This document shows positions 1,666-51,408 of a DNA stretch of 53,092 nucleotides, one piece after another; the first letter of the stretch is position 1, and each line of letters opens with the position of its first letter. The notes beneath the pieces are model-generated. The model made no database searches. It saw only the letters and a list, made by a program, of their open reading frames with translations, and was not told where the DNA came from. The DNA is from a virus: IMG/VR virus record IMGVR_UViG_3300033149_001838, positions 1 to 53,092 of that record. One strand, given 5' to 3'. A program made the translations under genes and the position numbers.

Positions 1666-1738
1666 CCTCCTGCATAAGATATTTGGGGCTGAAGGTGATG
1701 CAGCACCTTCATTCAGAGATGATCAGTCTCTTACCCCA
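1666..1738 (-). promoter_or_regulatory. Structured leader RNA, copy A: three-way junction with loop-to-Shine-Dalgarno pseudoknot
   Basis: On the minus strand an outer stem (UGGGG with CCCCA, ends 1738 and 1684) encloses hairpin 1 (AGAGA-CUGAUCA-UCUCU) and hairpin 2 (GAAGGUG-CUGCAU-CACCUUC). The hairpin 2 loop CUGCAU (1703-1698) is complementary to AUGCAG (1675-1670), which overlaps the AGGAGG at 1671-1666. All three stems differ in sequence from the other copies yet keep pairing. Role inferred: translational control of the endonuclease. Confidence 0.8.
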
Positions 1739-3136: not shown

Positions 3137-3151
3137 TTAAATAACTCTCCT

Positions 3152-6100
3152 TTAGCCAAAAATCAGTCCTCCACTATCCTTTATTCCATCATGTAGACTG
3201 GTAGGATCACCCGAAGTTTCTCCATTACTGGTTGCTACCAATCTAAATAGGTTTTTTTGTTCAGCAGATACCGTAACGTCTGTTTCAATATAGGGACTCT
3301 CGTTATTATACCAATCCACATCCTTAACTCGGAATAGTATTTGGGGATGTAGGCCATGATTATCCACATCACTTTCTGATAACATATATGTAAACTCATT
3401 GCTATCTAAGTTTGAGTAACTAGACCAATCACTCATAGAAAACTCTGCAAATGCTGCCCATAACTTTCTATCAAAATAATCAAAAAGCCCTGATGGTACT
3501 TCAAAGACTATTTCCAGAGTGTAGGTTTCTCCTCGTATTAAATTAGTATCTAATAGGATTGCTACTCTGTGAGAATTGGAATGGTCAAATTCAACCTGTC
3601 TTTCACTTGTGTTAATGGTAACACCAGTGATAGGGTATACAGCAGCTTCAAATTCTTCATCTGTCCAGGTGGTCCAGGAGCATAGTTGAACTTCTCCATG
3701 TAAGAGGGATACATTTAGAATCTTGGTATCTCTAAACTTGTTATTAGGATCTATCGAATCAGCAGCAATATATATTCTATTGTATTCTGCATCAGCTTCC
3801 CATGTTATGGAGTGTGTTCTAAACAATGATACAGGGTTATCATCAACCCCTCGTATAATCTCCTTCATATCCTCTTGGATTAGCATATAAGAATATTTAT
3901 AATATTTATGGTCTGATTCTCCACTTGCGTCCCAGTAAAATCTGGCTCCACCGAGTAGAGTATCACCGTTTATATTTTGTAATCTATCTGGGGATAAATT
4001 TTCGGCCCTAAACGGGGTGGTACCAGAAGATTCCCTTTCGCCATTGATAACAGTATGTACTATAAAGTAAACAGTATTATACGGATTACCTTCTCTAGAT
4101 GTACCAGCCAAATCCGATAGCATGTCATTCACTGAATAACTATAATAAGCATCTGTAGTCATCACATCTCTCAATATATTAGCAGTATCAGTAGGATCAG
4201 TATGATAGATTTCTACTCTATAGCCTTTTATAAAAACATCACCTGAAGGCTCAAAATCATCCATTGTTACTGGATTCCACTCTAATGTGACAGTTGTATC
4301 ATCAAAATAGTGTTCTCCCTCTGGATCTGCATTTCTTAATCTCAGTTCACTAGGATTTGGCACATAAATTGGTTGGCTAAGGAGAACTTCAACTGTTACT
4401 GGTTCCCCATACCAACCATCAATACAATAACATGAGAATCTGAACGTGTAATATTCATCCCATTCTAGAGTAGGATCAGTATGTGTTATGGGATTTCCTG
4501 GTGGTGAGATATTCTCTAAACTAACCCACCCAGTTATATCATTAGTAGTAATAGATCTTGACACAGAAATCCAGGATACTGGCAGATAATACTCACCAAC
4601 TGGGACCTCAGCATTTATAACCCAACCTTTACGATTTCCTTGCAATTGAACTATATTAATATTGGTTGGTTTTGGTACGGTAGGTCTATAAGGGGGAGGT
4701 ATAGGATCATCAATAATTATAGTTGATGCCTCAGTGTAAACGTCTGTTTGGTGTTCCACCCCAACTACTGATATTTCATCATCATCCGTACGTTCAACAG
4801 CGGTTAATCTAATAGGTTTAACATAGGTATTTAGTTCTCCTAATGTGAATACAGCATCAGTAGCAGGATCATTGTCAGGCCATGACAATAATGGTACAGT
4901 AGTAACTTCATCATTCTGTGACCATCCTGAAGAATCAATAGTGGCAGTCACAAATTCATTAGAATCAGTCTGGTATTTCATTAAATAGGTGGCGGTTGTA
5001 CTGGGTACTGTATAGGCTGAATCTATTTCTATATTTGGATCGCTATAGCTTAGAACCCTTCCCCCATGTCCCCAGCCTGGTAACTGATGCTGAAAATTAA
5101 TTATATCTCCAGCAGTAGCATGTAGAGCATCCAGCCCACATTTAAATTCCACTACTTGGGTACAATTGGTAGCTCTATTAAGATTGTATATAGCCTCTCT
5201 TCTAGCCCGATGAAAATTAGTTATACCTTTTAAACCAATAGTTATTTCATTAAGTTTGGGTATAGTGTTTGAGCTAGTCTTGGCAATTACATTTCTAAGT
5301 TCATAATCCCGTTCCGCATCTGCATAATTCGCAATAACTTTATACGGGACGTTAGATATGGGGGTAAAAGTCTCTTTGAAGCTACCTTTAATGATATTTC
5401 CCATCGTTAGAGTATGGACAGGAGTTTCATCTTTGTCTATTATAAAATTGAACTTTCCATCAAACCATACAGGCCAACACCTAAAAGCATTGCACATTTC
5501 CATTAGAGCTGTTAGGGCTGATTGCTCTCCTTCTAGTACTCCATTATATGTGTGATAATGTTGTCTAGAAGTCTCAACTGCGATACTTACCTGTGTTATG
5601 TTGCCTGAAAAAAATGGCCCTGTCGGATTACTTGTAACCATTATACGAATAGAATTTATATTAGAATACTGCCAATTATCAACAGAAAAGGTTACAGTTT
5701 CCTCACTATCCTTCATAAGAGCTTCAGTAGAGTATAGATGATAAGTCTGGCCATTTGGGGAACATGCTGCTACCTCCAAAAAGATGTTACTTTGGGTCAT
5801 TTCAGAATAATCTATACTAAATGTATATTTATCTCCCAACACAAACTTGTAGTAAGTTCCTAAACGAAATGTATATGTCCATGTAGTTCCATCAAATATA
5901 ACATGTCTCTCAGAAGTAGATAAGTCAGTGTGATCTCCTGTTTCTATACGACTCACAAATGTATCATCCGTACCATTAATCCACCAATCACAGAGGTCTT
6001 TGGTATATGGCTGCCAAACCCTATGACATTCTTTTATAGCCTCTATAATACCAGCATCATACAGATCTGATTCAGATATATAGTCACCTAGACCATATCT

Positions 6101-8062: not shown

Positions 8063-8064
8063 TG

Positions 8065-8478
8065 TTATACAACTCCTTTATATCTCACAGCAGCATACAA
8101 TCTTTCTTCAAATGGAGTTCCATTCAACCGTTCTACCCTAGAGGTACTTCTCTCTTCTACATGAATAAATTTATTATTGCCAATATACATTCCAATGTGA
8201 TCGGCAATCTTACTCCCATTATATCTAGTAAATATTAAGCCATCATATACTTTATAGGGCGCATCAACTCTGTACCACAAAGTGTCTATATTATTTGTTA
8301 TTTGCTTACCTTTTTCTTTATACCAAGTCTTACTATCATAACCAATATGATTCAACTTGGGTAGTTCTATACCCAATTCTTCTTTATATATTAAATATAC
8401 CAGGCCAAAGCAGTCTGTACCGTTTTTTGTTACTCCACTTTTCATATATGGTATATCTATGTATTTAGCAAAATTCAT
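8065..8478 (-). CDS. NlpC/P60 cell-wall endopeptidase, lambda gpK-like
   Basis: A 137-residue cysteine peptidase of the NlpC/P60 fold. The nucleophile cysteine is in NGTDCFGLVYLIY (~residue 22), the catalytic histidine in ADHIGMYIGN (~95), and a third polar residue in KFIHVEE (~107). Family members cut peptidoglycan peptides and help the tail cross the wall. Lambda gpK has an extra N-terminal JAMM domain that is absent here. Neighbours are gpL-like upstream and gpI/J-like downstream with almost no spacing, matching lambda order M-L-K-I-J. Confidence 0.88.
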   Translation of the reverse strand: MNFAKYIDIPYMKSGVTKNGTDCFGLVYLIYKEELGIELPKLNHIGYDSKTWYKEKGKQITNNIDTLWYRVDAPYKVYDGLIFTRYNGSKIADHIGMYIGNNKFIHVEERSTSRVERLNGTPFEERLYAAVRYKGVV

Positions 8479-8480
8479 AA

Positions 8481-9185
8481 CTACCTCGAAATATAGATTC
8501 CAGACCTTGTTATAGACAAAAATCCACCATACCTACTAGCATTATTTCTGGTTCTACAATTTTCTATACTTAAATCACAAGTAGGGTATAGTGTATAGCT
8601 AGTAGCAGAAACACCACATTCAGTGGAATTATACTCCCATTGACATTCATGACTGAATGTTCTTCTAGGCAATCTGGCTCTTTTAATGTCGAATTTGGAT
8701 TTACAACTAAATGTAATAGCCTGCTCAGTAGATTGGGCTGAGTCTACGTAGAACTTTTCTTTGATATAGGCATTCTTATCTGGAGTTGATCCTATAAATT
8801 TGTAGTTATCACTATCAGACGGTAAATATCTAGCAAATGTAGTTATAGCATAGATATCCCTGCCCCTGAGATACTCTTGAGAATGCAATATAGGCTCTAG
8901 TGTCCTATCTATGTTTGGTATGGATAGTGAAATACCAGTTATTTCTCCCTCTATATTAGACTTAATTACATCTCCTTGAATAGGAATACCAGTATATACG
9001 GTTGTAGCTGAAGTAACATTGCCACTGGAGTCTAATTGATATCCCACAATATCATGATTCCAATCTGCATAATACTGATAATCTACACCAGACTGAGACG
9101 CATTAATTACATACAGATGAATAGCATCTAAACCTTCAGTTTCTGTCTGTAACTCTGATATTGAGGCATTTAAATCATAAGACAT
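8481..9185 (-). CDS. Minor tail protein, lambda gpL-like (four-cysteine C-terminus)
   Basis: A 234-residue tail tip protein. The C-terminal ~60 residues carry the signature seen in lambda gpL and DUF2163-type proteins: spaced cysteines (SHECQWEYNSTECG, then YPTCDLSIENC) followed by RxxNASRYGGFLS. In lambda gpL the cysteines bind an iron-sulfur cluster; this is inferred here by motif. It links the tail tube end to the tip. The gene lies between the gpM-like and gpK-like genes. Confidence 0.75.
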   Translation of the reverse strand: MSYDLNASISELQTETEGLDAIHLYVINASQSGVDYQYYADWNHDIVGYQLDSSGNVTSATTVYTGIPIQGDVIKSNIEGEITGISLSIPNIDRTLEPILHSQEYLRGRDIYAITTFARYLPSDSDNYKFIGSTPDKNAYIKEKFYVDSAQSTEQAITFSCKSKFDIKRARLPRRTFSHECQWEYNSTECGVSATSYTLYPTCDLSIENCRTRNNASRYGGFLSITRSGIYISR

Positions 9186-9194
9186 AAGAACTCC

Positions 9195-9866
9195 TTATAG
9201 GCTAGGGTATTTACTGGTAAATGTAATAGTTCCAGACCTCATAAAACCACCATCATTTGTCAAATCTATATCTTGAGGTATATAGGGTCCTTTTTTAAAG
9301 CTATTTAATGGATTAGGAGAACAGTAGACTTCATAAACTGGATATATCTTAGCATAACTATTAGCATCAGATAGAGACAAATCACCATAGGATGTATTAA
9401 ATATAATAAACGAATTAGTAGTTATACTATCATAAGATCCAAATTGGAAGCCATAGTTACTAGCATATACAAACGCATATACTTTTGAATTCACCCAATA
9501 CCGTGTATCTGGTATATAGACTTTCCAATCACTACCGGATAATGTGATAGATGTTGGTGTTATACCCCTAGATAAATCCACCACATAGAAAGAATATAAG
9601 CCATTCTCAGCAATATAGTTAACAAAATGCTCTATCTGGTTATATTCCCTAGCAAATATATTATTGTAATCATATGTTATTGAAAGATATGGATTGGCCT
9701 TTTTTCTGGTAGATATAGTTTGCTGCTCAAATACAGATGTTAGTATATTGGGGACATCTCTTGACATAACCCCATTATTAGGTTCAAAATATGAGTATGA
9801 TATACTACCTATAATACCATCATTAGACCCAGGTGATACAGTCCCTATTGGAAATAAGTTAGCCAT
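9195..9866 (-). CDS. Minor tail protein, gpM-like by position
   Basis: A 223-residue beta-rich protein directly downstream of the tape measure, where lambda has gpM. The C-terminal strand FMRSGTITFTSKYPSL is typical of distal tail or tip adaptor proteins. No catalytic motif is seen. Assignment as the first tip protein at the tail end is from gene order, not from residue signatures. Confidence 0.6.
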   Translation of the reverse strand: MANLFPIGTVSPGSNDGIIGSISYSYFEPNNGVMSRDVPNILTSVFEQQTISTRKKANPYLSITYDYNNIFAREYNQIEHFVNYIAENGLYSFYVVDLSRGITPTSITLSGSDWKVYIPDTRYWVNSKVYAFVYASNYGFQFGSYDSITTNSFIIFNTSYGDLSLSDANSYAKIYPVYEVYCSPNPLNSFKKGPYIPQDIDLTNDGGFMRSGTITFTSKYPSL

Positions 9867-9878
9867 TAAATCAACTCC

Positions 9879-12800
9879 TTATACTCTCAATGCCCTATAT
9901 ATTGGACCACGTTTCATTAGATCTGCACCTATATGATTTATAACAACTTTTTCCCCGGATTTACCTGTCATAGCGGTAGCAATATCCTCTTGAGTCACAA
10001 CATTAACTATGTTTATAGGCTGTCCACTTTCCCGCACATATCCAGACACATTGTTTTTGTCTATATTCTCAGAAGGAATGACCAATTCTCTACCGGAAGC
10101 ATTATCCCCCAGTATAGCCATGGTATCTCTACTAGTTAGACCTCCTGAGCTGAATCTGTGGAATGCCCTAATGGGAGAAATTACACCTCCGTGTTTATTA
10201 CTCCATGAGGACGGAAACATATCTGGGTCAAATCCACTAGGACCAACTCCCCCCTTTGTAGGCAATAAATCCAACAGTCCCATAACCACTTTCATAGCTA
10301 TCCACTTATTTATAGTATCCTGAATAGACTTTGCCAAACTCAGGAAGAATTCCTTAAATACTTCCCCCAAGTTTTTAATAGGGTTACGAAGATCATTTAT
10401 CTCACCTTTTAAGCGATTCATTTCGTCCGCTATTCTAGCAGCTTCCTCAGCTTGCCCGTCGGCTATAGCATTTTGGTAGTCTATTTCTAACTGATTTAGT
10501 TCATCCTGCAACTGGTTAGCTTCTTCCCTCTGTTCTTCAAACCCTCTGGTTATTTTATTAAGAATGTCAGTAATACCACTAACCATTTCGCTTTCAATCA
10601 AATCTACAAAGCTATCCCTCCACTCTGAGAGTTTCTTTTTAATACTGCTAGCTATTTTGTAGGTCCATTCCATTCGCTTCTTATACTCATCCGCATGTCG
10701 AACTAACTCCATCTCTGTTTGGGTTAATTCGTTGGTAAGTCTTAACAGCTCTTCCCCGCTTAATTTTGCTCCTTCAGAGAGTCTATTTTCTTCTAGTATA
10801 AGAAGTATAGCTTCTTTTCTTTTCTCTAATTTTTTCTTTTCTAGATTGAGAATTTCAACGTGTTTTTCTGGATGAAATAATTCCAGGGCTTCTTGTTGTG
10901 TACTCAACTCTACTATTTTTTGCTGTGCAGCTACATTTATTTTATTAATCTTTTGTTCTAATTTACTTTTATTTATGATAGCATTATACTTGTCATTTAT
11001 GGCGGCTAGTTTCTCTAGGTATGCATCTGTTATCTCAACAACTCCACCATAGTCTTTTCTTAATCTCCGAATTGCAACTGCTCTATCAGCATCAGCTTTC
11101 TTTTGTCGTGTGACATAAACATCTTGACCTTTAATAGCCTCAGTTTCTAGTTTCAAAGCCTCTATATCTAGCTTAATTCTCTCACGTGTTGCGCCTATTA
11201 TCTTATTTATTCTCTTATCCCGTTCACTTTCGATTTTGCCTTTTCTAGGCTTCCATTCCTCTTTTGCAAGAGCGTCCTTAAAGTAGCGATTGGCTTGTAT
11301 TATTTCCTTTTGTACCCTGCTAGTGGTCTCTCCAAAACTCTCAGTATCAGCTTGCGTTTTACGGAGCCATTTGTTATATTGAACAATCCAACTATCTTTT
11401 GCAATTTTCTTCTTCTCTAACTTAGATATTATTTTGTCAAAAATAGCTGTAACACGAGCATCAGTAAACTTTTTCCGGTATTCCTCCACTAATGGGCTTT
11501 TTTCACCAAACCAACCCATTAAAAAACCCTTCTGTTTAGTTGTTACTTCCAAATCTGTTTTTGCTAATTCCTTTGCGAGTTCTTGTATGGTACTATAAGC
11601 CAGATCAAAGTCTTCTTTCATGGCTTTTCGTAGTATCTCTTTATGCTCTGGTCTCATTTCTAGATATTCTCTTAATGCTTTATTCTTAGGGACCATCAAT
11701 CCTTTTTCTAGCACTTCGCTCATGATATTTGCAGCATCCGCAGCATCTAAATATGCCCTTTTGTATTTCTTTAGACTATCCAATTCCTCTTTATCTTTTT
11801 TAGTCTTGGTATTTATATTATCAACCATTTCTTTGAAAGTAGTTCTTCCATACTTATTGTAGGCAGCAGCTAAATCCTCAAACTGATTAACTAACTCGTC
11901 TGTAGTCTTTGTACCAACACCTACAAACTTTATATAGTCATACATAAAAGCCACGATCTCAGTTCTTATTTTAACTAACTCTAGGTCAAATTCCGCCTTC
12001 TTCACTCTCAGACTCTTTAGAGCGTCTGTTTGTATCTTCAGCTGATTCTTCCAATTATTTAGATTTTGTAGAGATCTACCACCAAACCCTGGTATTGTAA
12101 CATTTTCTTTGTCCACCCTTCTTTGATAAATATTAATCATATTCTTAGCTTTACTCACAGTAGATTTTCTGAATTCTACATCTCTTTCTGCTTCCTCTTT
12201 ATCTAAAAGTACATTTCTCAATTTCCGCTCTAAAAGTTTTTTCTTTTGCTCCAAAGTTTCTTCTTTCAGTAAACGTATACCTTCTCTTCTCTCCTTATTA
12301 AGTTCTTTATGTTTTTCAGTAATCTCTTCTAGTTCTTTACCTTCTAAATGCATAGCCAATAAGATCTGATCTTTTGCTATTACTCGTTCAGCCTCTATAT
12401 TTTTTCCCTCTCTGATAGCTTTTACATATTTTTCAAAAGTCTTCTCAGATTTCTTCAATACAGCTTCTTGTTCATTTAACTTTTGTGTAGTTCTATCTAA
12501 AGCCTCTTCCATTGAGGCTAATCCCTCTTTAGCATTTGCTATATAATCAATCAACCACACTATAATAGCCACAACACCGAACATACCCAACTTGAGTTTT
12601 GTGATCTTAGATAGCACAACAAACAAACCGGTAAGAATATGTTTCGTGGCTTTAAATGCTTCCTTTATTTTTAATAACTTAGCTATCATAGAACCAGCAA
12701 ATATTATACCTACTGTTGTACCTATACCCACAAGTAGTTCCAGTATCTTCTTGAGTGGAGGAGCTAAATCACTAGCTCCATCCACAAATTCTGTCATGTA

Positions 12801-32316: not shown

Positions 32317-33864
32317 TCACCCCTTTAAATTATTATTGGTAACATTCCACACCCAAACTGTGTTACCACAATCAAATATTCTTGTAAAATTGTTGTCATA
32401 CATATTTTGTACTTCAGTTTTGTCGGCATCAAAAAATTCCAATTTCTTCTTTAAAACAGACTTACGAAAATTATATCGGTGTAATCTATTATTATCCACA
32501 ATATACCAATAATTAGGATTACTATTATGAGACTTTCTAAAACCTAACTTGGTATAGAATGCATCTCCCGACCATCTTCTATCAGAATAAGTTATAATGT
32601 TATCTGGCCTCCAATTTCTAACAAAGTACATAAATAACTTAGAAGCAATACCAGGAATAATATAATCTGAGTGAGAGACAAATCTATTTAACTCCCACTC
32701 ATGCTTACTCTTACGGCTCAAATTGGGTTTACCAAAAGTCATTACGGATACTAACTTATCCTCATAGAAGGCTCCTAATTTTATACTTGCAGAATCTTTA
32801 CCTTGTATGTGATGTTGATCTAAGAATTCATTTTTAATTTTAGCAGGAATCTCACAGATCTTACATTTTCTAGCATGGATTCTTTCGGCATCAGATATAC
32901 CTAATTTATAAAATAATCTGGATAAAACTATGGAACTCTTATTATACCATTCATCTTCAAAGATGGTAATTAAGTTATATCCTGCTTTGTTGCACTGTTC
33001 CAATTTATCCAAATGATAATATTTATTCTTCCCTTGAGCTTCACTATGCCAGAATAAGCCACAATACTCTATTGCTGTCTTCTTAGAGGGAATAACTATG
33101 TCAAGTTCTAACGGCCCAATTAATTCTCTGTCACCTGATATAGCATCTGGGAAATGTTCCTGTATTATGCCAAATATTTCTAATTCAGCTCTAGATTTGT
33201 GATGAGAACAATAGGGACATCTGTGTCCCTGCTGAAATGAATTCCATTTAATTTGATACTCATGTCCATTTTCACATTCCACCAATAGTTTAGTTTTGTT
33301 ATTTTTATATTCTGTAGAAATAAGTTTAGTATTACTTTCTTTAAACGCAGCTAATATGGTTTCCAATGTCTGTCTCTTATTAATAGCATTTTCTTTATAA
33401 CTACATAAAAGACACCTACTACCTCTCTGCCAGCTAGACCACGTAATGTAATACTTATGTCCATTAGGACATATGAAGTCTAGTTTCTGCATCCTATGTT
33501 TATACTCTGTAGTTAAAAGAGTATAACCTTCATCTGAAAAAGACTTCTTAATTAAATCAAGATTAAGTCTGGTTTTCTTCTGTGTATCAGATTTATGGTG
33601 CTTATCGGCTAACTCTTTAACTTTCATAGGATTATCAGCACCATATTTTTTAACACAAGTAGCCTTACGCTTCTCTATAACATTATCCCGTTTAATAGTA
33701 CATTTTCTACAATATTGTTTTTCTATCCTGTTCTTACGTTTAAGAGCATACCAGGAAGTTTGCTGTTCACTCCCACAATCATCACACTTATAGATAATCC
33801 TTACATTCCCAACTAAATTATCAATTGCAATCTCTTTCCCGTTCTTAAAAGCTTTTACTATCAT
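32317..33864 (-). CDS. EDxHD (Vsr-like) homing endonuclease with zinc-ribbon repeats
   Basis: A 515-residue free-standing homing endonuclease. Residues ~1-60 are a zinc ribbon (CDDCG, CRKC), ~104-158 and ~163-222 two repeats of the same GH/CPxC zinc module found in the HNH enzymes, and ~225-310 the nuclease: GPLELDIVIPSKKTAIEYCG, LFWHSE, YYHLDKLEQC, IFEDEW. The E-x-D ... E-Y ... H ... D pattern is that of the I-Bth0305I/EDxHD group. The C-terminal part (~320-515) resembles an acetyltransferase-like or DNA-binding extension and is not assigned. I choose ATG 33864: it follows AGGAGG, lies after the leader RNA and aligns with the small paralogue at 31965. The longer ORF from 33969 would read through the RNA. 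Confidence 0.85.
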   Translation of the reverse strand: MIVKAFKNGKEIAIDNLVGNVRIIYKCDDCGSEQQTSWYALKRKNRIEKQYCRKCTIKRDNVIEKRKATCVKKYGADNPMKVKELADKHHKSDTQKKTRLNLDLIKKSFSDEGYTLLTTEYKHRMQKLDFICPNGHKYYITWSSWQRGSRCLLCSYKENAINKRQTLETILAAFKESNTKLISTEYKNNKTKLLVECENGHEYQIKWNSFQQGHRCPYCSHHKSRAELEIFGIIQEHFPDAISGDRELIGPLELDIVIPSKKTAIEYCGLFWHSEAQGKNKYYHLDKLEQCNKAGYNLITIFEDEWYNKSSIVLSRLFYKLGISDAERIHARKCKICEIPAKIKNEFLDQHHIQGKDSASIKLGAFYEDKLVSVMTFGKPNLSRKSKHEWELNRFVSHSDYIIPGIASKLFMYFVRNWRPDNIITYSDRRWSGDAFYTKLGFRKSHNSNPNYWYIVDNNRLHRYNFRKSVLKKKLEFFDADKTEVQNMYDNNFTRIFDCGNTVWVWNVTNNNLKG

Positions 33865-33873
33865 GGTCTTTAC

Positions 33874-33943
33874 CCTCCTATCAGGATTAAGTGGTGGGGG
33901 TGGATAGGCACCCCCTACAGAGTTGGCCGAACTCTTACCACTT
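33874..33943 (-). promoter_or_regulatory. Structured leader RNA, copy C: three-way junction with pseudoknot
   Basis: Minus strand: outer stem AAGUGGU with ACCACUU (ends 33943 and 33889), hairpin 1 AGAGU-UCGGCCA-ACUCU, hairpin 2 GGGGGUG-CCUAUC-CACCCCC. The loop CCUAUC (33908-33903) pairs with GAUAGG (33882-33877), overlapping AGGAGG at 33879-33874. Relative to copies B and D one loop base change is matched by a change in its partner. It precedes a nuclease of a different family. Confidence 0.82.
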
Positions 33944-33957
33944 TCATTTATGCCTAT

Positions 33958-33986
33958 ATTATACCACAAATAGACCTAAATGTCAA
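33958..33986 (-). promoter_or_regulatory. Consensus sigma70 promoter for the EDxHD endonuclease gene
   Basis: TTGACA (33986-33981), 17 bp, TATAAT (33963-33958) on the minus strand. The 50 bp at 33977-34026 are identical to 50953-51002 in front of the 50.9-kb gene, so this is a dispersed repeat as well as a promoter. Confidence 0.85.
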
Positions 33987-34038
33987 GTAAAAAATGATGT
34001 TAACTAAAAATATTCCTAAATAATTTAACTAGACTTTT

Positions 34039-34086
34039 GGCAAGGAGAAACAGAAGAAAAAATAACTAACTCTATTCCTCCTTGCC
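34039..34086 (-). terminator. Probable terminator between capsid gene and endonuclease promoter
   Basis: On the minus strand GGCAAGGAG (34086-34078) pairs with CTCCTTGCC (34047-34039) over a 30-base loop, followed by AAAAGTCTAGTTAAATT. A related hairpin stands at the same place before the promoter at 36.9 kb. The long loop and weak U-tract make termination likely but not certain. Confidence 0.5.
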
Positions 34087-34116
34087 TATTGGTTAATTGT
34101 TAAATATAACAATAGC

Positions 34117-35079
34117 TTACGAAGAAGCTATGTTACAAGCATACCAGTAACGCCAGTTAACTACCGCTCCACCGAACCGTGTGAAAATAGATGAAAAGTA
34201 GTCTTTACTGGTCTCGTCCTGCCAAAAATCCAACTCAATATCCATTCGATCAGTAGCCATAAGGCCCATCTTACGAACTCCCAAGAACCAACTGTCCGTA
34301 TCAGTCAGGTAATGCCATTGCACCGGAGTGACAATGGATCTCAACACATTAACATCATTATCCTGACTTCCGGGAATCAGCGCACTGTTGAGAATAGTAT
34401 CAGCAGTGAACCTCAATGCCGGAGGAATCAAGAGAGTATCGGGAGTTATAGCAATCTTCTCCCCTCTCTCATCCCTGTTATTAGTAGTGGTAAACGTAGT
34501 ATAGGTAGTCTGGAGATTAGCCGCAGACAGTGCCCTACTAGATGTATAATTAGCATACGTGTTACCAACCTTATCTGGATGAGCCGTACTAAAGAACGGC
34601 TGCCCGTCATAGATCTTATTTCCTGACGGGTCGGTCACAACTTCAGTTATGGTGTTGTTAAACACAGCATGACCAGCAATCATAGCTCCCTGGTTGAAAA
34701 ACTTAGCATAGAACTTTTCCTTAGTTATAGGAAGCATCCTACCCCAAGTACCAACGGTAGACTGGAGCATATTGCCCACTTTCTGAGCATCTGAAACAGT
34801 CTCATAACTCATACGAACGATCCTACCAAATGACCTATTCTTACAAACTATCGTATAGGACTCAATGGGGGTGTCCGGCTGCATATCTTCCCCTTCAGGT
34901 TTTTCCAGCAATTCCCCAAGACCAATAGCCGAACTGAATTGTTCATAAGCCGCATCTGAAGGAACTATCTCGAATATATCCTCGTATACGGGAGGAATCT
35001 CAGGATAAGCCTCCCAGAAGTACGAATACATGTCTTTTTTCATCGCTTCGGTAAACTGCGATCTCATTACACCTGCCAT
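34117..35079 (-). CDS. Major capsid protein, Mu gpT-like
   Basis: A 320-residue capsid subunit. Features of the Mu gpT group: a helical N-terminus (FTEAMKKDMYSYFWEAYPEIPPVYEDIFE), RSFGRIVRMSYETVSDAQKVGNML, HAVFNN, GQPFFSTAHPDKVGNTYANYTS, the DTLLIPPALRFTADTILNS strand and GLMATDRMDIELDFWQDE. These build the HK97 fold. The decoration protein gene is 16 bases upstream, as usual. The DNA here is richer in G and C than the region average, as expected for a strongly expressed gene. Confidence 0.9.
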   Translation of the reverse strand: MAGVMRSQFTEAMKKDMYSYFWEAYPEIPPVYEDIFEIVPSDAAYEQFSSAIGLGELLEKPEGEDMQPDTPIESYTIVCKNRSFGRIVRMSYETVSDAQKVGNMLQSTVGTWGRMLPITKEKFYAKFFNQGAMIAGHAVFNNTITEVVTDPSGNKIYDGQPFFSTAHPDKVGNTYANYTSSRALSAANLQTTYTTFTTTNNRDERGEKIAITPDTLLIPPALRFTADTILNSALIPGSQDNDVNVLRSIVTPVQWHYLTDTDSWFLGVRKMGLMATDRMDIELDFWQDETSKDYFSSIFTRFGGAVVNWRYWYACNIASS

Positions 35080-35095
35080 ATGTTCTCACCTCCCC

Positions 35096-35563
35096 TTATA
35101 CATTCTGCCAATAAGACGGTTTCACCTTAACAAGCACCGTATCATTGGTATCATCATAGTCAACAACAGTAAGCATCTCAGTAGATGCAGTGTTTCCTAT
35201 GTCAGCTTTCTGCACTCCAGAGTCGACAACAACAGCCGCTCCTTTGCCAACGGATGTAGCTGTCAGAGACGTATCCTTACAGGGAAGCTCAAACACACCA
35301 TTAGCTAGGTCATAAATTACAAAGACCTTATCTGCTTTGGCTGTAGAACTGGAAGCCCAATAGGACTGCCCAGAATCATCTTTGGGGGTTACAGCCCACC
35401 CCATTATCGTAGTAGCTGAGTTGCAATCTGCCAGAGTAACTGCACCAGCAGAGTCCATGTATACAAATTTTCCTCCTCTACGATAAAAGGTCTGACTTGC
35501 AGCAACTGGGTACTCTCGGCCCTTGCCAGACCCTTCTCTCATGCCGTATCGAATTTCGGCCAT
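35096..35563 (-). CDS. Capsid decoration protein
   Basis: A 155-residue beta-rich protein immediately upstream of the capsid gene. It has GKGREYPVAASQTFYRRGGKFVYMD, TIMGWAVTPKD, KVFVIYDLANGVFELP and a C-terminal DTNDTVLVKVKPSYWQ, like DUF2190-type or other decoration proteins that cap the capsid surface. It has its own leader of 195 bases with a likely promoter. Confidence 0.75.
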   Translation of the reverse strand: MAEIRYGMREGSGKGREYPVAASQTFYRRGGKFVYMDSAGAVTLADCNSATTIMGWAVTPKDDSGQSYWASSSTAKADKVFVIYDLANGVFELPCKDTSLTATSVGKGAAVVVDSGVQKADIGNTASTEMLTVVDYDDTNDTVLVKVKPSYWQNV

Positions 35564-35758
35564 ATTTATTCACCTTCCTTTACTGAGCATTATAGCTCTT
35601 AGTATATTTTTGGGCAAGACCATCCAGTCTACCACTTTCTTCAACAGTTTCGATACCTTACATTGGTGCCCTATTAATTTCAGGTATCAGGTTAACTCAT
35701 CCGAGCAAATAATCTGCTGTATAAATGTATTAAGAATACACTTGTATAGAAGATTATT
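35564..35758 (-). other. Leader of the capsid operon
   Basis: A 195-base gene-free stretch between an HNH endonuclease and the decoration gene. It carries a likely promoter near 35590-35617 and a ribosome site (AAGGAAGGTG). The end of the endonuclease gene at 35759-35785 contains a CCCTGCCAAAAGTCTAG piece that also occurs next to the other cassette promoters. Confidence 0.5.
35589..35617 (-). promoter_or_regulatory. Probable sigma70 promoter for decoration and capsid genes
   Basis: Minus strand TTGCCC (35617-35612), 17 bp, TATAAT (35594-35589). The start of transcription would be ~20 bases before the ATG of the decoration gene, leaving a short leader with AAGGAAGG. The -35 matches consensus at four of six positions. 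Confidence 0.55.
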
Positions 35759-36808
35759 CTAGACTTTTGGCAGGGTGGAACAACCCCTGTGAATTTTTTT
35801 GTGACATTTATTGCATAAAGTTATGCCGTTATCAATATCAAGAGATTGTACAGGATCACAAATAACTGGCTCAATATGATGAGCTGTTAAATTATTCTTA
35901 CTACCACAGATCTGGCAGGTATAATTATCTCTAGATTTAACCAGGTCTGCCCATTCTTTCTGGTGAGGGCGAGAATACTCTTTGAAACCTTTGGGGTATT
36001 TAACCTGACCATAAACAGGGCAAGCTTGTTTACAAGAATCTGAACAGTAGAATCTATGTCCACCATGTTTATTTATAGCTATAATTCTACTAACTACATT
36101 TGATTTCTTTGGTGTAAACCACTTATCACAATTAGAGCATTTAACTTCTAGATAACCTTCTTCAGTTTTTCTAGTCTCCTCTACAGGATATAATTTATCA
36201 GCATAGGTGTCATATAATGGGATATTTAGTTTAGACACGCCACCCTTCCATGAGGGATGTTTATCTTCTTTTAATACTGAACAAATTGGGCATCTTTGCC
36301 CCTGCTGGAAATTATTCCACCTGATAAAGTGAACATGCCCATTTGGGCATAATAGTTTCAACTTAGTCTTCTGGCTATTAACATAATCTGATAGCAGTTT
36401 GTATCCTTGTGATTCTACATATTGTTTAACTTTCTCATATGTTATTTTATTACCAGCACAGTAGGGACATCTAGTACCAGCTACAAAACAGTCAAACCTA
36501 ACTGACCAATTATGCCCTTCACTACATTGCAGTTTTAGCTTAACTCTACTCTCATAACTTCCAGATAGCAACTTATACCCATTATACTCAATCACAGATT
36601 TTACATCTTCATAAGTATATTTTATTTTTCCAGCACAATAAGGGCATCTTTTACCTTGCTGAAAATTTCTCCACCTTGCAAAATAAACATGTCCTTTGCT
36701 ACAACATAAATGCAATTTTGTATTTGCATTTATATACTCTTTGGATAATAACTGATACCCTTCTTTTTCGATTATAGACTTGACATATTCATAGGTAAAT
36801 TTTCTCAT
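35759..36808 (-). CDS. HNH homing endonuclease with three zinc-ribbon repeats
   Basis: A 349-residue protein: three ~58-residue repeats (FTYEYVKSIIEKEGYQLLS..., CSKGHVYF..., RCPYCAG), the SWKGGVSKLNIPLYDTYA linker, a CSNCDKWF and YCSDSCKQAC segment and a C-terminal HNH nuclease (CQICG, AHHIEPVI, DNGITLCNKCHKKIH). The last residues (RGCSTLPKV) differ from the KLxELR end of its sisters: the 3' end appears to be replaced by the CCCTGCCAAAAG sequence. It has its own promoter and the structured leader, and inserts between the tail-tube-like and decoration genes. Confidence 0.88.
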   Translation of the reverse strand: MRKFTYEYVKSIIEKEGYQLLSKEYINANTKLHLCCSKGHVYFARWRNFQQGKRCPYCAGKIKYTYEDVKSVIEYNGYKLLSGSYESRVKLKLQCSEGHNWSVRFDCFVAGTRCPYCAGNKITYEKVKQYVESQGYKLLSDYVNSQKTKLKLLCPNGHVHFIRWNNFQQGQRCPICSVLKEDKHPSWKGGVSKLNIPLYDTYADKLYPVEETRKTEEGYLEVKCSNCDKWFTPKKSNVVSRIIAINKHGGHRFYCSDSCKQACPVYGQVKYPKGFKEYSRPHQKEWADLVKSRDNYTCQICGSKNNLTAHHIEPVICDPVQSLDIDNGITLCNKCHKKIHRGCSTLPKV

Positions 36809-36814
36809 AATATT

Positions 36815-36884
36815 CCTCCTACTAGGATTAAGTGGTGGGGGTGAGTAGGCACCCCCTACGAAGTTAGCTAGACTTCTACCACTT
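36815..36884 (-). promoter_or_regulatory. Structured leader RNA, copy B: three-way junction with pseudoknot
   Basis: Minus strand: outer stem AAGUGGU with ACCACUU (36884-36878, 36836-36830), hairpin 1 GAAGU-CUAGCUA-ACUUC, hairpin 2 GGGGGUG-CCUACU-CACCCCC. Loop CCUACU (36849-36844) is complementary to AGUAGG (36823-36818), overlapping AGGAGG (36820-36815). ATG follows at 36808. The leader is about 85 bases from the expected transcription start. Confidence 0.85.
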
Positions 36885-36898
36885 TAGTTTATGTCTAT

Positions 36899-36927
36899 AT
36901 TATAACATATTTTGACTAAAATGTCAA
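36899..36927 (-). promoter_or_regulatory. Consensus sigma70 promoter for the HNH gene
   Basis: Minus strand TTGACA (36927-36922), 17 bp, TATAAT (36904-36899). The upstream AT-rich sequence is shared with the promoter at 1750-1778. Confidence 0.85.
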
Positions 36928-36964
36928 GTAAAAAATGATATTAATTGAAAATAATTTAACTAAA

Positions 36965-37004
36965 CTCCTGGCGGGGTGAAACACATGTTCTACCCTGCCA
37001 GAAG
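36965..37004 (-). terminator. Probable terminator upstream of the endonuclease cassette
   Basis: On the minus strand CUUCUGGCAGGGU (37004-36992) pairs with ACCCCGCCAGGAG (36977-36965), 12 of 13 positions, followed by UUUAGUUAAAUUAUUUU. It lies after the tail-tube-like gene and before the cassette promoter, so it would separate the two transcripts. The sequence CCGCCAGGAG is a variant of the CCTTGCCAAAAG found at the other cassettes. Confidence 0.6.
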
Positions 37005-39743: not shown

Positions 39744-40796
39744 TTATAAATTCCTCAGTTCTGTAAGTTTACAACCTGTTTGATTATGCACTTTTTTATG
39801 GCATTTACTGCAAAGAGTTACACCATTATCAATGTCAGCACTCATAATGGGCTCACAAACCACGGGATCAATATGATGTGCTACTAAGTTATCCTTACTA
39901 CCACATATCTGACAGGTATAGTTGTCTCTAGCTTTGACTATATTAGCCCACTCAGTCTGATGAGGTCTTTTTGTATTAAACCCTTTAGGATATTTACTTC
40001 GATTATAAATACTACAACTACGTTTACATTCAGTAGAACAATAAAACCTACTACCACCACCATTATTAATCGCCATATACCTTGCACTAACAGCCCGTTT
40101 TGTAGGAATAAACCATTTCTGACAATTAGAGCATCTAACTTGTAAATATCCTTCTTTTGTTTCTCTAGTCTCTTCTATAGGTTCTAACAATGAGGCATGA
40201 ACAGAATATACACTTTTTCTAACCTCTATACCTAAAACCTCAGCATTCATTACAACATCCCTACATTTATAACATCTACTACCGCTACTAAAAATATCCC
40301 AGGTAGTCTCTAGAATATGTCCTCTGGTACATCTAACTATCAGCTTATTCTTTGCAGATACATATGTTTCGGAGAGCAATGTATAGTTCTGAGATTCAAT
40401 ATAAGCTCTAACATAGTCTATGTCAAGTTGGGATTTACCTACACAGAAGGGACACCTAAATCCATGCTTAAAGTTATCCCAAGTTACTTTATAAACATGC
40501 CCCTTGTCACATTGGATTTTTAATTTATCATAACGTGCATTATGATACACATCTGACAAACAAGTATACCCAAAAGAACTCACGTATTGTTTTACATCAG
40601 ATATAGTTTTATACCTACCAGCACAATAGGGACAGCGTTTGCCCGTCTTGAAATTTCCAAACTTAACCTCATATTCATGCCCCTGTGAACACCTAACTAA
40701 TAGCTTGGTTCCGTTATTAACATATTCTTTACTTAATAACTTGTATCCTTGAGACTCTATATAGTTTTTTACATAATCATAAGTTAGTTTCTTCAT
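39744..40796 (-). CDS. HNH homing endonuclease with three zinc-ribbon repeats, leaderless copy
   Basis: A 350-residue protein with three zinc-ribbon repeats (GYKLLSKEYVNNGTKL..., RCPYCAG), a linker that lacks the SWKGG piece of its sisters, the CSNCQKWF and YCSTECKRSC segment and an HNH nuclease (CQICG, AHHIDPVV, DNGVTLCSKCHKKVH). Upstream there is no promoter, no three-way-junction RNA and no Shine-Dalgarno: the sequence shared with copy B begins only at AATATTATG. Its expression probably depends on readthrough. The C-terminal KLTELRNL codons carry TGAGGA, the ribosome site for the glycosyltransferase that begins right after. Confidence 0.85.
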   Translation of the reverse strand: MKKLTYDYVKNYIESQGYKLLSKEYVNNGTKLLVRCSQGHEYEVKFGNFKTGKRCPYCAGRYKTISDVKQYVSSFGYTCLSDVYHNARYDKLKIQCDKGHVYKVTWDNFKHGFRCPFCVGKSQLDIDYVRAYIESQNYTLLSETYVSAKNKLIVRCTRGHILETTWDIFSSGSRCYKCRDVVMNAEVLGIEVRKSVYSVHASLLEPIEETRETKEGYLQVRCSNCQKWFIPTKRAVSARYMAINNGGGSRFYCSTECKRSCSIYNRSKYPKGFNTKRPHQTEWANIVKARDNYTCQICGSKDNLVAHHIDPVVCEPIMSADIDNGVTLCSKCHKKVHNQTGCKLTELRNL

Positions 40797-43303: not shown

Positions 43304-44836
43304 CTATTCTACCGTTCTATGAGAAGATTGTTCCTTCTCATTATCCATAGTTGTTTTGTACACATTTTTTTCTAGGTTACTATTAGGATTACCCTCACCT
43401 TCATCAAAATACTTTTTGTCTATTTTATTTAAAGGCTCCACAATTCCATCACTGTTGTCAATCTCAGTTTCAATCTCAGATCTAATGTTCTGTGGAGTGG
43501 TCGGAATCATCTTACGCACAATATTTTTCTGTAGAGTCTTATTCAAGAGAGGACTAAAATTTCTTTCCATCACAGTCATATAGTTATTCAATTCATCCTC
43601 TAAAGCTAAAATATCAAAACTAGAAGGATACTTAACTTCTTCTAGGGTCTCCGGGTCTTTATTTAGTTGCAATAATGCTAATCTAGACAAATCATTCTCA
43701 AATTTTTCATAACTTGCACTTTTATTGCTCAATGCCGCATTTACACTGGTAAATGACATCTGAGATTGCCTTCCAGACCTAGAACTGTACAAATCAGACG
43801 TTCCACCAGTTAGGTTAGCGAGCCTGAAACATTCTTTGACTAGATCCTGCACCAACTTCCATACTGTATGTATTATCTCAGAATCCGGGGATATGTACTG
43901 AGGTGGATGAGAACTCTCAGAATCAAATGTCCATACCGAGGAAGTTCCTAATTGTATCAAAGGATTACTGCCACTTTCAGCGGCCTCACTTAAACTGCCA
44001 TTATCGGGAACTACCAACTGAGAAAATGCTTGCCTGGCTATACTCTCAGAGATCAGTGAACAGAAATTCATAATCTCTCTATTAACATAAACAATATCCT
44101 TTATCAGGGACTCCCCTACTTTATTATCACCATAATTACTGCCATGATACATTGTGGCTATGGGAACTATACCAAGAGCATTCTTACCCTTAGCTGGTCT
44201 TCCATCATCAAATTGTACTAACTGCCCATCTTCATCCTGGATTTCCCAACTATCTGTAGTAATAAGCTTGTAATGAGTCTCTACCTCTCTGTCTTTTGTA
44301 GGGTCTAAATCTCTATAATACGTAGACTCAATAATAACCCACCTGAAATTACCTTCAGAATCCAGAGACCAATCTACTAATTGAGTGGGAAAAATAAGAC
44401 TTGCATAAGGATAAAGATTTAATTTTTTAGCAACTGCTTTAGATAGCCTCTTTTTGGGGGATGGCGGAACATCTACCATAGCGTGAATGACACCAAAGAC
44501 AGAGGCAAAATATCCTGCACGCTTTACAAAATCAGAGATATTTGTACCTCTATTATCTGCATTCAGGCGAAATCTTGCCAAATCAGAAGTGGGTGCTCTT
44601 TCTATATTAGACTTAAATATGTAGTTATTTAGAATAGAGGGTAGGAGGTCGCACAAGTTGAGAAAATAGGCACGACTTAATCTATCAGAAAAATCAGTGC
44701 TATCTTCCAATCTATGGGAAAATAAATTATCATCAGTGATAAAATCATCCCCACCTTTGGCAGCATCCTGATACAACTCCCATAAATTAACATTATCATC
44801 ATATAATGGATGTGACCTATCACTCAGTTTTGCCAT
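43304..44836 (-). CDS. Portal protein
   Basis: A 510-residue protein following terminase. It contains FSDRLSRAYFLNLCDLLPSILNNYIF, GVIHAMVDVPPSP, a NYGDNKVGESLIKDIVYVNREIMN helix region and the membrane-like clip SESIARQAFSQLVVP, and helix LVQDLVKECFRLANLTGG, as seen in DUF4055-type siphovirus portals. Twelve copies form the DNA channel. The ATG lies within the end of the HNH endonuclease gene (17-base overlap), and its ribosome site is made of the endonuclease's final codons. Confidence 0.85.
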   Translation of the reverse strand: MAKLSDRSHPLYDDNVNLWELYQDAAKGGDDFITDDNLFSHRLEDSTDFSDRLSRAYFLNLCDLLPSILNNYIFKSNIERAPTSDLARFRLNADNRGTNISDFVKRAGYFASVFGVIHAMVDVPPSPKKRLSKAVAKKLNLYPYASLIFPTQLVDWSLDSEGNFRWVIIESTYYRDLDPTKDREVETHYKLITTDSWEIQDEDGQLVQFDDGRPAKGKNALGIVPIATMYHGSNYGDNKVGESLIKDIVYVNREIMNFCSLISESIARQAFSQLVVPDNGSLSEAAESGSNPLIQLGTSSVWTFDSESSHPPQYISPDSEIIHTVWKLVQDLVKECFRLANLTGGTSDLYSSRSGRQSQMSFTSVNAALSNKSASYEKFENDLSRLALLQLNKDPETLEEVKYPSSFDILALEDELNNYMTVMERNFSPLLNKTLQKNIVRKMIPTTPQNIRSEIETEIDNSDGIVEPLNKIDKKYFDEGEGNPNSNLEKNVYKTTMDNEKEQSSHRTVE

Positions 44837-45920
44837 TCATTTCAACTCCTATTTTCCTCAAATCACTATACCTACACCCATCCTCAGAATGTACTCTTTT
44901 ATGACAATTACTACATAAAGTTATGCCATTATCAATATCAAGGGATTGTACAGGATCACATATAACAGGCTCAATATGGTGAGCTGTTAAATTATTCTTA
45001 CTACCACAGATCTGGCAGGTATGGTTATCTCTAGCTTTGACTATATTAGCCCACTCAGTCTGATGAGGTCTAGACTGATTGGGGTTCATCCCTTTGGGGT
45101 ACTTGACCTGCCCGTATACAGGACAGGCTTGTTTACATTTATCTGAACAGTAGAATCTATGCCCACCATGTGAATTTATAGCTTTAATTCTGTTACAAAC
45201 CATATCTATAGTAGGCACGAGCCATTTTTGGCAGTTACTGCATCTAACTTCTAGGTAGCCTTCTCTAGTCTTTCTAGTTTCTTCTACAGGGTGTAATCTA
45301 TCAGCATAGGTGTCGTATAGGGGAATATTTTTATTCCTAACTCCTCCCTTCCATGAGGGATGATTAGATCCAGATTTGGCACACACCGGACATCTACGTC
45401 CTTGCTGAAAGACATTAAATTTAACTCCATACTCATGTCCTTTTGGGCACTGGACTTCGAGTTTTGTATGGTTGTTCTTGTACTTCTTACTGATTAGTCG
45501 ATATCCCTGAGATTTTATATACTCCTTTACCTCAGAATAAGTTTTTCTAGCACAACCAGCACAGTGAGAACATCTAACCCCATGTCTGAAATCGCTCCAA
45601 CGAACATTATAAATATGTCCAGAAGGACATAATAATTTCAATTTAGTAGCATTGTTAATATAAGAATTAGATATTAATTGATAGCCTTGAGAATTTATAT
45701 AATCCTTAATAGTATCATAAGGCACTCTTTGTGACTGCCTCAGACAGTATGAACATCTTGTACCATAATTAAAGTTCCCAAATGTTACATACCACTTATG
45801 CCCTTCTGGACACAATAATTTTAGTTTAGTGCCCATATTAATATAAGAATTGGATAATAATTTATAACCCTCTTTCTCAATTACAGATTTAACATATTCA
45901 TAGCTCAGTCTTTTAGACAT
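44820..45920 (-). CDS. HNH homing endonuclease with three zinc-ribbon repeats
   Basis: A 366-residue protein, close sister of those at 35759 and 39744, with three repeats (EKEGYKLLS, CPEGHKWYVTF, RCSYC), SWKGGVRNKNIPLYDTYA, CSNCQKWL, YCSDKCKQAC and HNH (CQICG, AHHIEPVI, DNGITLCSNCHKRVH). I choose ATG 45920 rather than the GTG at 45929, because it stands at the same distance from the leader RNA and the GGGGG ribosome site as in the other copies. It interrupts the terminase-portal gene pair and extends over the portal start. Confidence 0.87.
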   Translation of the reverse strand: MSKRLSYEYVKSVIEKEGYKLLSNSYINMGTKLKLLCPEGHKWYVTFGNFNYGTRCSYCLRQSQRVPYDTIKDYINSQGYQLISNSYINNATKLKLLCPSGHIYNVRWSDFRHGVRCSHCAGCARKTYSEVKEYIKSQGYRLISKKYKNNHTKLEVQCPKGHEYGVKFNVFQQGRRCPVCAKSGSNHPSWKGGVRNKNIPLYDTYADRLHPVEETRKTREGYLEVRCSNCQKWLVPTIDMVCNRIKAINSHGGHRFYCSDKCKQACPVYGQVKYPKGMNPNQSRPHQTEWANIVKARDNHTCQICGSKNNLTAHHIEPVICDPVQSLDIDNGITLCSNCHKRVHSEDGCRYSDLRKIGVEMNGKTE

Positions 45921-45926
45921 AGTATT

Positions 45927-45998
45927 CACCCCCTACTGGGATTAAGTGGTGGGGGTGAGTAGGCACCCCCTACGAAGATGATCAGTCTTCTACCACTA
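45927..45998 (-). promoter_or_regulatory. Structured leader RNA, copy D: three-way junction with pseudoknot, no promoter
   Basis: Minus strand: outer stem AGUGGU with ACCACU (45997-45992, 45950-45945), hairpin 1 GAAGA-CUGAUCA-UCUUC, hairpin 2 GGGGGUG-CCUACU-CACCCCC. Loop CCUACU (45963-45958) pairs with AGUAGG (45937-45932), overlapping the GGGGG ribosome site. Compared with copy B hairpin 1 shows a U-A to A-U switch. No TTGACA/TATAAT pair precedes it, so this copy depends on transcripts from terminase. Confidence 0.8.
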
Positions 45999-49783: not shown

Positions 49784-49948
49784 TTAAGTATTACAAAATA
49801 TAATAACCACAAAGAAAAGCAAAAAAGCACCAAGATTAAACCATTTCTCCCAAGGTTTTGCATCTTCTGCATCTATTAAGCGGTCTATCCAGCTTCTTTT
49901 GGGATACTCCCACTGTCCCCAGCCTATACAGTGCTTCTTCATTTTCAT
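49784..49948 (-). CDS. Small single-membrane-span protein, 54 residues
   Basis: ATG at 49948 follows a strong AAAGGAGG; stop TAA at 49786. The ATG overlaps the stop of the upstream gene as ATGA. The peptide has a soluble N-terminus (WGQWEYPKRSWIDRLIDAED) and one hydrophobic helix WFNLGAFLLFFVVIIFC near the end. It could be a holin- or spanin-like component, or a membrane accessory of the upstream protein; only the topology is visible. Confidence 0.7.
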   Translation of the reverse strand: MKMKKHCIGWGQWEYPKRSWIDRLIDAEDAKPWEKWFNLGAFLLFFVVIIFCNT

Positions 49949-50901
49949 CTGAAAATCCTCCTTTTAAATTTAAACCACCAATGATCTTTATACCTGTCTA
50001 TTTTCTCATTTACCTTTTTTAATTTTTTAAAATAATCATCACTTAATAAATTAATATGTTTAAGATCCCCAATAGAATATTTACTCCAACTCTCATTAGG
50101 ATACTTTCTCCAATAACAATTTCTGGACATTCTCATCTGAGGATAAAGCCAGTAACCATCTGAAAAGACACTCTTGCCTACTTTTTTAAGCCACTTAATA
50201 GACTCTTTCTCACTATGTTGCTCAACCCATTGACCACAAATGACTTTTGTATTTTTAGACTTTCTTATGGCAAACCAGATTTTCAAAAAATTATATTTAT
50301 AATACGTAAGTCCATTTACCCAGTATTTAAAAGATCTAAGTGCATTCTCTTCGGGATAAGTATACTGACCTAGCATTTGTTTATATACCGGATCTAGTTT
50401 CTTATTAATGTTATAATATAATATGGCCCTTTGTTCATTGTTAGATAATTTCTTACAAGACTTGCAGTTGCATTTAATTTTGTCATAGTCTCTAAAATAA
50501 GCCACTCTGTTATTAGACTCTAAGTTATAATCTTCAAAGTCTATAAAGATCCCGTTGCATAGATTTTTTCTGTATAATTTAACTGGATATTCCAGAACCC
50601 AGTCTATATAATTTTTATCTAACGGACAAGGAGTTTCTCTATAATATCTATTATTATAGTATAATGCCTTCCCTGGATTAGGATACCAAGGATTATACCA
50701 AGTGGGCATTAATATAACTTTAGTCTTACTGCCCTTAAAGTGCCTTAATATATCTACTATCTCTTGATAAGTCCCAAACTCAGTCTTCTGCCTCATATCA
50801 GGTCTGGGATTGTACATAGCTACTATTAGAGTGTCTATACCGGATTCTATTGCTCTGAGTATATATCCATAATCAGGCCACAAAATATACAATGCTTTCA
50901 T
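49945..50901 (-). CDS. TIM-barrel-like protein, possibly a glycoside hydrolase
   Basis: A 318-residue protein. It reads like the strands of a TIM barrel: YILWPDYGYILRAIESGIDTLIVAMYNP, TKVILMPTWYN, LCNGIFIDFEDYN and VICGQWVEQHS. The GIFIDFEDYN segment at the end of a strand looks like the acidic site of sugar hydrolases. A CNCKSCKKL zinc-like pair occurs in the middle and the C-terminus is basic. It has its own promoter, a repeat of those at the endonucleases, and ends ATGA with a membrane protein. A function in attacking cell-surface sugar is possible. Confidence 0.5.
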   Translation of the reverse strand: MKALYILWPDYGYILRAIESGIDTLIVAMYNPRPDMRQKTEFGTYQEIVDILRHFKGSKTKVILMPTWYNPWYPNPGKALYYNNRYYRETPCPLDKNYIDWVLEYPVKLYRKNLCNGIFIDFEDYNLESNNRVAYFRDYDKIKCNCKSCKKLSNNEQRAILYYNINKKLDPVYKQMLGQYTYPEENALRSFKYWVNGLTYYKYNFLKIWFAIRKSKNTKVICGQWVEQHSEKESIKWLKKVGKSVFSDGYWLYPQMRMSRNCYWRKYPNESWSKYSIGDLKHINLLSDDYFKKLKKVNEKIDRYKDHWWFKFKRRIFR

Positions 50902-50933
50902 AACTATTCTCCTTTCACTTTAAATATACCTAT

Positions 50934-50962
50934 ATTATACCATATTTTCACATAAATGTCAA
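50934..50962 (-). promoter_or_regulatory. Consensus sigma70 promoter, dispersed copy
   Basis: Minus strand TTGACA (50962-50957), 17 bp, TATAAT (50939-50934). The 50 bp at 50953-51002 are identical to 33977-34026. Unlike the endonuclease copies, only a short leader (~26 bases) follows. It drives the leftmost-reading gene of the window's late operon from the control region. Confidence 0.85.
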
Positions 50963-51408
50963 GTAAAAAATGATGTTAACTAAAAATATTCCTAAATAAT
51001 TTTTGACCTCCTGAAAATCACTCTATATCGCTCTAAATGGCCCAATTTGATTTCTGAGACCGGAAAATACCACATGTAGTAATTTCAATGAGTTAGCTTA
51101 GATTAATAAAAATCTGCCCCAGTACATTTTTAAAAATTAAGTTGCTTTGGGAATAGAGAATAATAGAGTATTTTAAAGAGAATGGGCGTAATTTGACGTG
51201 AATCGAAGAGAATGGGGGTAGATAGGGAGCTTAGGGGAAGTTCTATGTATAGTTTGTTAAGAAGAGTCTAATAGACCAATAGAAAAAAGGTTCAAAATTA
51301 GAAAAAATTCTGTGGGGGGTCTGACTGTAAAGAGACATGCTTTGCGAAGCAATTCCCCTTTTTCTTATGGCACAATTCTCAATGGGAAAGGTGCAATTTT
51401 CGTGCCAC

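Follow-up and report, generated by a model that had tools for sequence, protein, structure and literature searches.

What do four similar RNA leaders do in a viral genome where each stands directly before a homing endonuclease gene? The window analysed here is the whole 53,092-nt IMG/VR virus record IMGVR_UViG_3300033149_001838 (positions 1 to 53,092), in which an earlier note, made from the sequence alone, had described leaders with an outer stem and two hairpins, the loop of the second hairpin being complementary to the ribosome site. All four were found in the window sequence on the minus strand and are called A to D here. Judged from sequence, they belong to a class of cis-acting 5′-leader RNAs of phages that probably hide the Shine-Dalgarno (SD) sequence of nuclease and replication genes and so limit their translation.

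Unconstrained minimum free energy (MFE) folding with RNAfold gave, in each of the four copies, the outer stem (P1) and the two hairpins (HP1 and P2) claimed before, together with a third hairpin, P3. In all four MFE folds the strand over the ribosome site is the loop of P3, and the six bases of the P2 loop pair with it exactly, as the earlier note had proposed: CCUACU:AGUAGG in A and D, CCUAUC:GAUAGG in B, and CUGCAU:AUGCAG in C. Copies A, C, and D have a palindromic HP1 loop; that of B has a GGCC core. Sigma-70-like promoters lie 5′ of the entire leader in A to C (that of C was read from the sequence), within an 88-nt promoter block that these three copies share and D lacks; leader D directly follows the terminase gene, with no upstream promoter block. 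The P3 hairpin, the self-complementarity of the HP1 loop, and an ATA codon behind copy C, considered below, were absent from the earlier note. The parts of the four leaders are as follows.

36899-36927, minus strand: promoter A, TTGACA-17-TATAAT (12/12), with TG ahead of the -10 element, about 14 nt 5′ of P1; its block is repeated in copies A to C
36814-36884, minus strand: leader A, from MFE fold and covariation
36878-36884 with 36830-36836, minus strand: P1 of leader A
36872-36876 with 36860-36864, minus strand: HP1 of leader A, loop 36865-36871 (C-UAGCUA)
36850-36856 with 36837-36843, minus strand: P2 of leader A, loop 36844-36849 (CCUACU)
36824-36827 with 36814-36817, minus strand: P3 of leader A, loop 36818-36823 (AGUAGG)
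33958-33986, minus strand: promoter B, TTGACA-17-TATAAT
33872-33943, minus strand: leader B, HP1 loop 33925-33929 (GGCC core), P2 loop 33903-33908 (CCUAUC), from MFE fold
33883-33887 with 33872-33876, minus strand: P3 of leader B, loop 33877-33882 (GAUAGG), from MFE fold
1664-1738, minus strand: leader C, HP1 loop 1720-1726 (C-UGAUCA), P2 loop 1698-1703 (CUGCAU), from MFE fold
1676-1681 with 1664-1669, minus strand: P3 of leader C, loop 1670-1675 (AUGCAG), from MFE fold
45928-45997, minus strand: leader D, HP1 loop 45979-45985 (C-UGAUCA), P2 loop 45958-45963 (CCUACU), from MFE fold
45938-45942, minus strand: 5′ strand of P3 of leader D, with loop strand 45932-45937 (AGUAGG)

Because the SD strand sits in the P3 loop, the contact made by the P2 loop is, in the structural model, a kissing loop between two hairpins. 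The loop-to-SD pairing of the earlier note is thus retained and the form of its pseudoknot corrected; the AGGAGG motif is therefore divided, with the first AGG in the kissing helix and the second in the P3 stem. The same layout is seen in most copies, for example UUCCCU[GUUAAGG]AGGGAA in locus L015, AUCU[UGAUAGG]AGAU in L251, and AUCUU[AUGCAG]GAGGU in window copy C. The window-type three-way junction, with HP1 and P2 inside P1, is also found in L002, L042, L196, L214, L242, L243, L250, L251, L253, L272, L273, L275, and L289, and RNAalifold recovers it unaided from a MAFFT alignment. In another subfamily (for example L188 and L206), HP1 lies ahead of an extended P2 rather than within P2. The leader in L241 (40-170) retains the junction, with the palindrome UCUAGA, and its kissing strand has moved upstream of the SD, is degenerate, and includes G-U pairs; it could be an intermediate or a decaying copy.

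P1, HP1, P2, and the kissing pairs are supported by covariation, and P3 by folding and recurrence. Among 18 junction leaders, 99.5% of the cells are paired and double changes occur at 19 of 21 pairs, in agreement with the covariation first noticed among the four copies; this table scored 0.849, against 0.202 when shuffled and at most 0.17 when slid. Homologues alter both sides of the contact and stay paired. A covariance model trained on ten leaders, the window's four among them, and run with filters off returned precisely these four in the window, at 74-83 bits, with everything else scoring at most 12.6 bits. Folding energies of the window copies are at most modestly unusual (z = -1.75 to -2.4), so the evidence for the leader is covariation, not stability.

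A three-way junction combined with an SD-sequestering pseudoknot is an architecture known from riboswitches, and the covariation that keeps P1, HP1, and P2 would also suit a junction whose ligand, whether a small molecule or a protein of phage or host, stabilizes or opens the kissing loop. We regard such a switch as improbable. Junction strands are variable, as are the loops, and one HP1 loop can stand in for another; P1 differs in geometry between the subfamilies, and the target genes have no metabolite logic in common. No conserved unpaired positions that could form a pocket were evident in the leader alignment or in later copies, although no formal test of the full alignment was made. Nothing found points to the ligand, protein, or temperature response that had been suggested for these leaders.

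The contact itself is also supported by the IMG/VR pattern scans. Of its bases, these specify CCU and AGG only and leave four loop bases of the 7-nt sites free, so that the remaining bases test the pairing. The free bases are exactly complementary in 33 of 35 distinct viral 7-nt sites, where 0.14 are expected and swap controls gave a mean of 2.1 and a maximum of 8; for 6-nt viral sites, exact pairing was seen in 9/9 (0.14 expected). When the scan was anchored on P3 and P2 was left unspecified, 10 of 94 distinct sites had an upstream hairpin whose loop is exactly complementary (swaps: mean 0.25, maximum 2). A descriptor that fixed no base of any stem or loop, but still called for an SD-like sequence and a start codon, gave 145 raw matches versus 16 in reversed sequence, a figure inflated in part because the loci had been pattern-selected; it also exposed extra copies with unrelated loop sequences in the same contigs. 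The same descriptor applied to later material, where some copies had been recruited by a model with no kissing contact in it, gave 45 sites versus 8 raw control matches.

How such a structure would act follows from where it lies. P2 would be a strong hairpin, and its loop of 6-7 nt, usually CCUnnnn, would kiss the 6-7-nt loop of P3 (nnnnAGG); the P3 stem would pair the second half of AGGAGG with an upstream CCU-type strand; both halves of the SD would therefore be engaged. The three-way junction of the window-type subfamily would be completed by P1 and HP1 and would hold P2 beside P3. The SD bases are paired in the predicted structure, through the P3 stem in the MFE folds and through the kissing pairs by covariation. 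A translational brake is favored because the leader covers the SD and excludes anti-SD pairing: the folded state would be the OFF state, ribosomes or another factor would compete for it, and its purpose may be to keep the dosage of DNA-cutting or replication-initiating proteins low.

Several observations weigh against this brake or the evidence for it. In the window copies, predicted SD:anti-SD pairing (-10 to -14 kcal/mol) outweighs both the kissing helix taken by itself as a free duplex (-7 to -8 kcal/mol) and P3 by itself (-1 to -5 kcal/mol); given these energies, the brake may be partial. Pseudoknots 5′ of an SD can also activate, as in IncI-type repZ. Structure guided both the cutting and the alignment of the rows in the 18-leader table, a bias in its own favor, although the slid controls still stayed at or below 0.17, and L272, which MAFFT had gapped, was omitted from it. 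The P2 consensus GGGUG/CACCC is partly a product of the search patterns. Finally, the second subfamily and the leaders of replication genes may be of separate ancestry from the window type.

The genes behind the leaders in the window are the following.

35759-36808, minus strand: HNH nuclease open reading frame (ORF) with CapR/DUF4379 zinc modules, 349 aa, behind leader A (PF01844, PF21817)
32317-33864, minus strand: homing endonuclease, putatively of another fold, 515 aa, behind leader B (phrog_559/phrog_3339)
240-1658, minus strand: HNH ORF behind leader C, with ATA at the homologous start position (1656-1658)
44820-45920, minus strand: HNH nuclease ORF behind leader D

The C-terminal part of the protein encoded at 32317-33864 reads like an EDxHD/Vsr-type domain from its motifs. 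In copy C, whose leader and pseudoknot are intact, the ATG of the other copies is replaced by ATA (1656-1658), and an in-frame ATG lies at 1712, at the foot of P2; either ATA is a rare start, or the ATG at 1712 is used, or the gene is dying. Beyond the window, more than 60 distinct elements lie ahead of HNH, GIY-YIG, EndoVII, and EDxHD-like nucleases, and among 49 downstream proteins of nuclease type, PHROGs and Pfam identified endonuclease VII and HNH and GIY-YIG homing endonucleases. The leader thus precedes nucleases of unrelated folds, as first noted, yet assigning it to homing endonucleases was too narrow: the P2-P3 kissing core also lies ahead of replication initiators, helicase-loader-like proteins, and a primase. 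About ten elements precede phage replication initiators or primases, with matches to replication functions (initiator, O-like, DnaD-like, helicase, primase) in L048, L059, L090, L185, L190, L192, L197, L201, and L210; L123 is closely related to L090.

These replication-initiator targets parallel RepZ of IncI plasmids, and the kissing loop could likewise activate, with the loop-loop contact offering the start site to ribosomes. We consider this unlikely, as the contact consumes one part of the SD and the P3 stem holds the other half, which should make binding of the 30S subunit and the folded state mutually exclusive. In IncI/IncB repZ, too, a loop pairs upstream of the start before a replication initiator; that pseudoknot activates and is controlled by antisense RNA, whereas the phage leader consumes the SD itself.

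If the leader is a brake, HP1 might add a second layer to it. An exact 6-nt palindrome occupies the HP1 loop of 20 of 25 junction leaders, in seven kinds (UAAUUA, UGAUCA, UAGCUA, CUGCAG, UUAUAA, UCAUGA, and UCUAGA), and all four pair types are seen at palindrome positions 2-5. The background in random 7-9-nt hairpin loops of the same records is 2.5-6.5% (binomial P 7e-20), and within-loop shuffles gave a mean of 2.6 and a maximum of 8. This junction-subfamily test replaced an earlier count over all leaders (18/66 versus 5.1 shuffled). A U-turn/YUNR motif in the HP1 loop was rejected, its chance occurrence being too likely. The two inner positions of the palindrome, 3 and 4, are adjacent and so cannot pair within one molecule, and the loop geometry is mainly 1-6-0 or 2-6-1, the latter being that of the 9-nt loop of the HIV-1 dimerization initiation site (DIS). 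The covarying palindromes suggest that leaders form homodimers: the HP1 loops of two mRNA copies would pair and alter, most simply tighten, the sequestration of the SD, so that expression would follow message concentration. This would supplement the SD-hiding brake, not replace it, and is a real possibility that we put a little below even. It cannot be general, because other leaders cap HP1 with GNRA-like (GAAA, GUAA) or fixed non-palindromic (CUUAGCG, GUUGCU) loops, and window copy B, L288, L308, L210, and L333 have no exact palindrome. AU-rich palindromes would also kiss weakly (free-duplex energy -5 kcal/mol for A, C, and D), and the 25 loops were delimited by hand and are related within phages, some being common to related copies.

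A bolder form of this idea, which we hold to be doubtful, is a self-counting device in which each palindrome pairs with its own kind, leader dimers tighten P2-P3 over the SD, and translation drops as the message rises. Separate self-counters would use distinct palindromes; the phages of the window, G006, G008, and G021 fit, having different palindromes for different genes, but G020 does not, as its three junction leaders all use one palindrome.

The palindromes could instead be read as DNA. HP1 is a near-dyad, I-TevI is known to repress its own gene, and TTGTAGCTACAA is a perfect 12-nt DNA palindrome in L044, L047, L056, and L060, so HP1 might be a protein operator, for example for nuclease autorepression, with the RNA fold secondary. 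In these four contigs, which carry HNH or GIY-YIG type genes, TTGTAGCTACAA sits ahead of P2. An operator is nevertheless very unlikely: the position of the palindrome within an RNA loop is fixed and its flanks there are unequal, the stems covary as RNA, identical palindromes precede unrelated proteins, and P2-P3 would be left unexplained.

The SD-hiding leader has clear precedents. Sequestration of the ribosome-binding site (RBS) by RNA structure is established for homing endonucleases of T4-like phages, with I-TevI/II/III, segB, and Aeh1 mobE as examples (PMC2988022); for most free-standing homing endonucleases of T4, translational control is described as not obvious and as experimentally unaddressed (PMC2988022). 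The T4-family leaders likewise hide the RBS of phage homing endonuclease genes in structure, but are simpler stems, relieved in I-TevI by a late promoter whose transcript omits part of the structure; in the present class, the RNA is a conserved set of several hairpins with a kissing loop, found across nuclease folds and replication genes, and in A to C all of it lies 3′ of the sigma-70-like promoter, although a phage late promoter of another consensus may exist. Riboswitches of the SAM-II and preQ1-II type also pair a hairpin loop with the SD region, whereas the phage leader has no Rfam match and no evident ligand-pocket-like positions, and its SD strand is itself a hairpin loop, giving a kissing complex. 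Kissing dimers through the DIS palindrome have been reviewed, and the DIS, too, presents a 6-nt self-complementary sequence in an apical loop (PMC7357161); the phage element is an mRNA leader with many, mostly AU-rich palindromes, and its dimers are predicted from sequence.

Comparison with Rfam 15 left this conserved structured leader unmatched: there were no matches in the window at the gathering threshold, the stretch 33800-37000 searched at E up to 5 gave nothing beyond weak chance matches, and across 28 loci with further copies matches fell elsewhere only, to tRNA, group I intron, and permuted transfer-messenger RNA (tmRNA). No description of the leader was found in the open-access literature (subscription journals and preprints were outside the scope). 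SD-sequestering control of homing endonucleases is a known theme, and within it the leader makes a new RNA class. If the brake is real, an uncurated cis-regulatory RNA class recurs in uncultivated phages and marks unrelated nuclease folds and replication initiators, and the leader offers a testable account of how invasive DNA-cutting genes stay quiet after landing in new sites. If the HP1 loop dimerizes, it would be a rare case in the bacterial world of mRNA-mRNA self-recognition in translation control, and the novelty would grow.

The distribution of the leader is patchy. L002 encodes a relative of HNH protein A (43% identity) that was found by protein similarity alone, and it has the same leader, with a different but fully complementary pair, CCUUAAU:AUUAAGG. 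Only a handful of the 80 loci fetched by protein as relatives of the window HNH protein have a leader directly upstream, and a fifth HNH/CapR paralogue in the window (39744-40796, 53% identical to A) lies right behind an upstream ORF with neither leader nor clear SD; the leader is therefore modular and not the property of one protein family. The view that it travels with its cassette holds in that A to C share the 88-nt promoter block, and fails in that D lacks this block, the fifth paralogue is leaderless, and a fourth copy of the block at 50931-51018, ahead of ORF 49945-50901 (no Pfam or PHROG match), has no RNA. Among bacterial genomes (GTDB), pairing was exact in just 2 of 10 pattern matches; outside virus contigs, then, the strict pattern is rare. 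A search of named phages by leader sequence returned a single partial match of 29 query bases (H90) and thus no isolate with the leader. The 14.5-kb locus L206 carries at least five copies, each ahead of another nuclease-like gene. The phage record of L214, which has several kissing-loop leaders, also has ten group I intron matches within about 7.5 kb (2531-9999), and the virus contig L062 carries a permuted tmRNA at 7171-7414 (RF04321, 77 bits).

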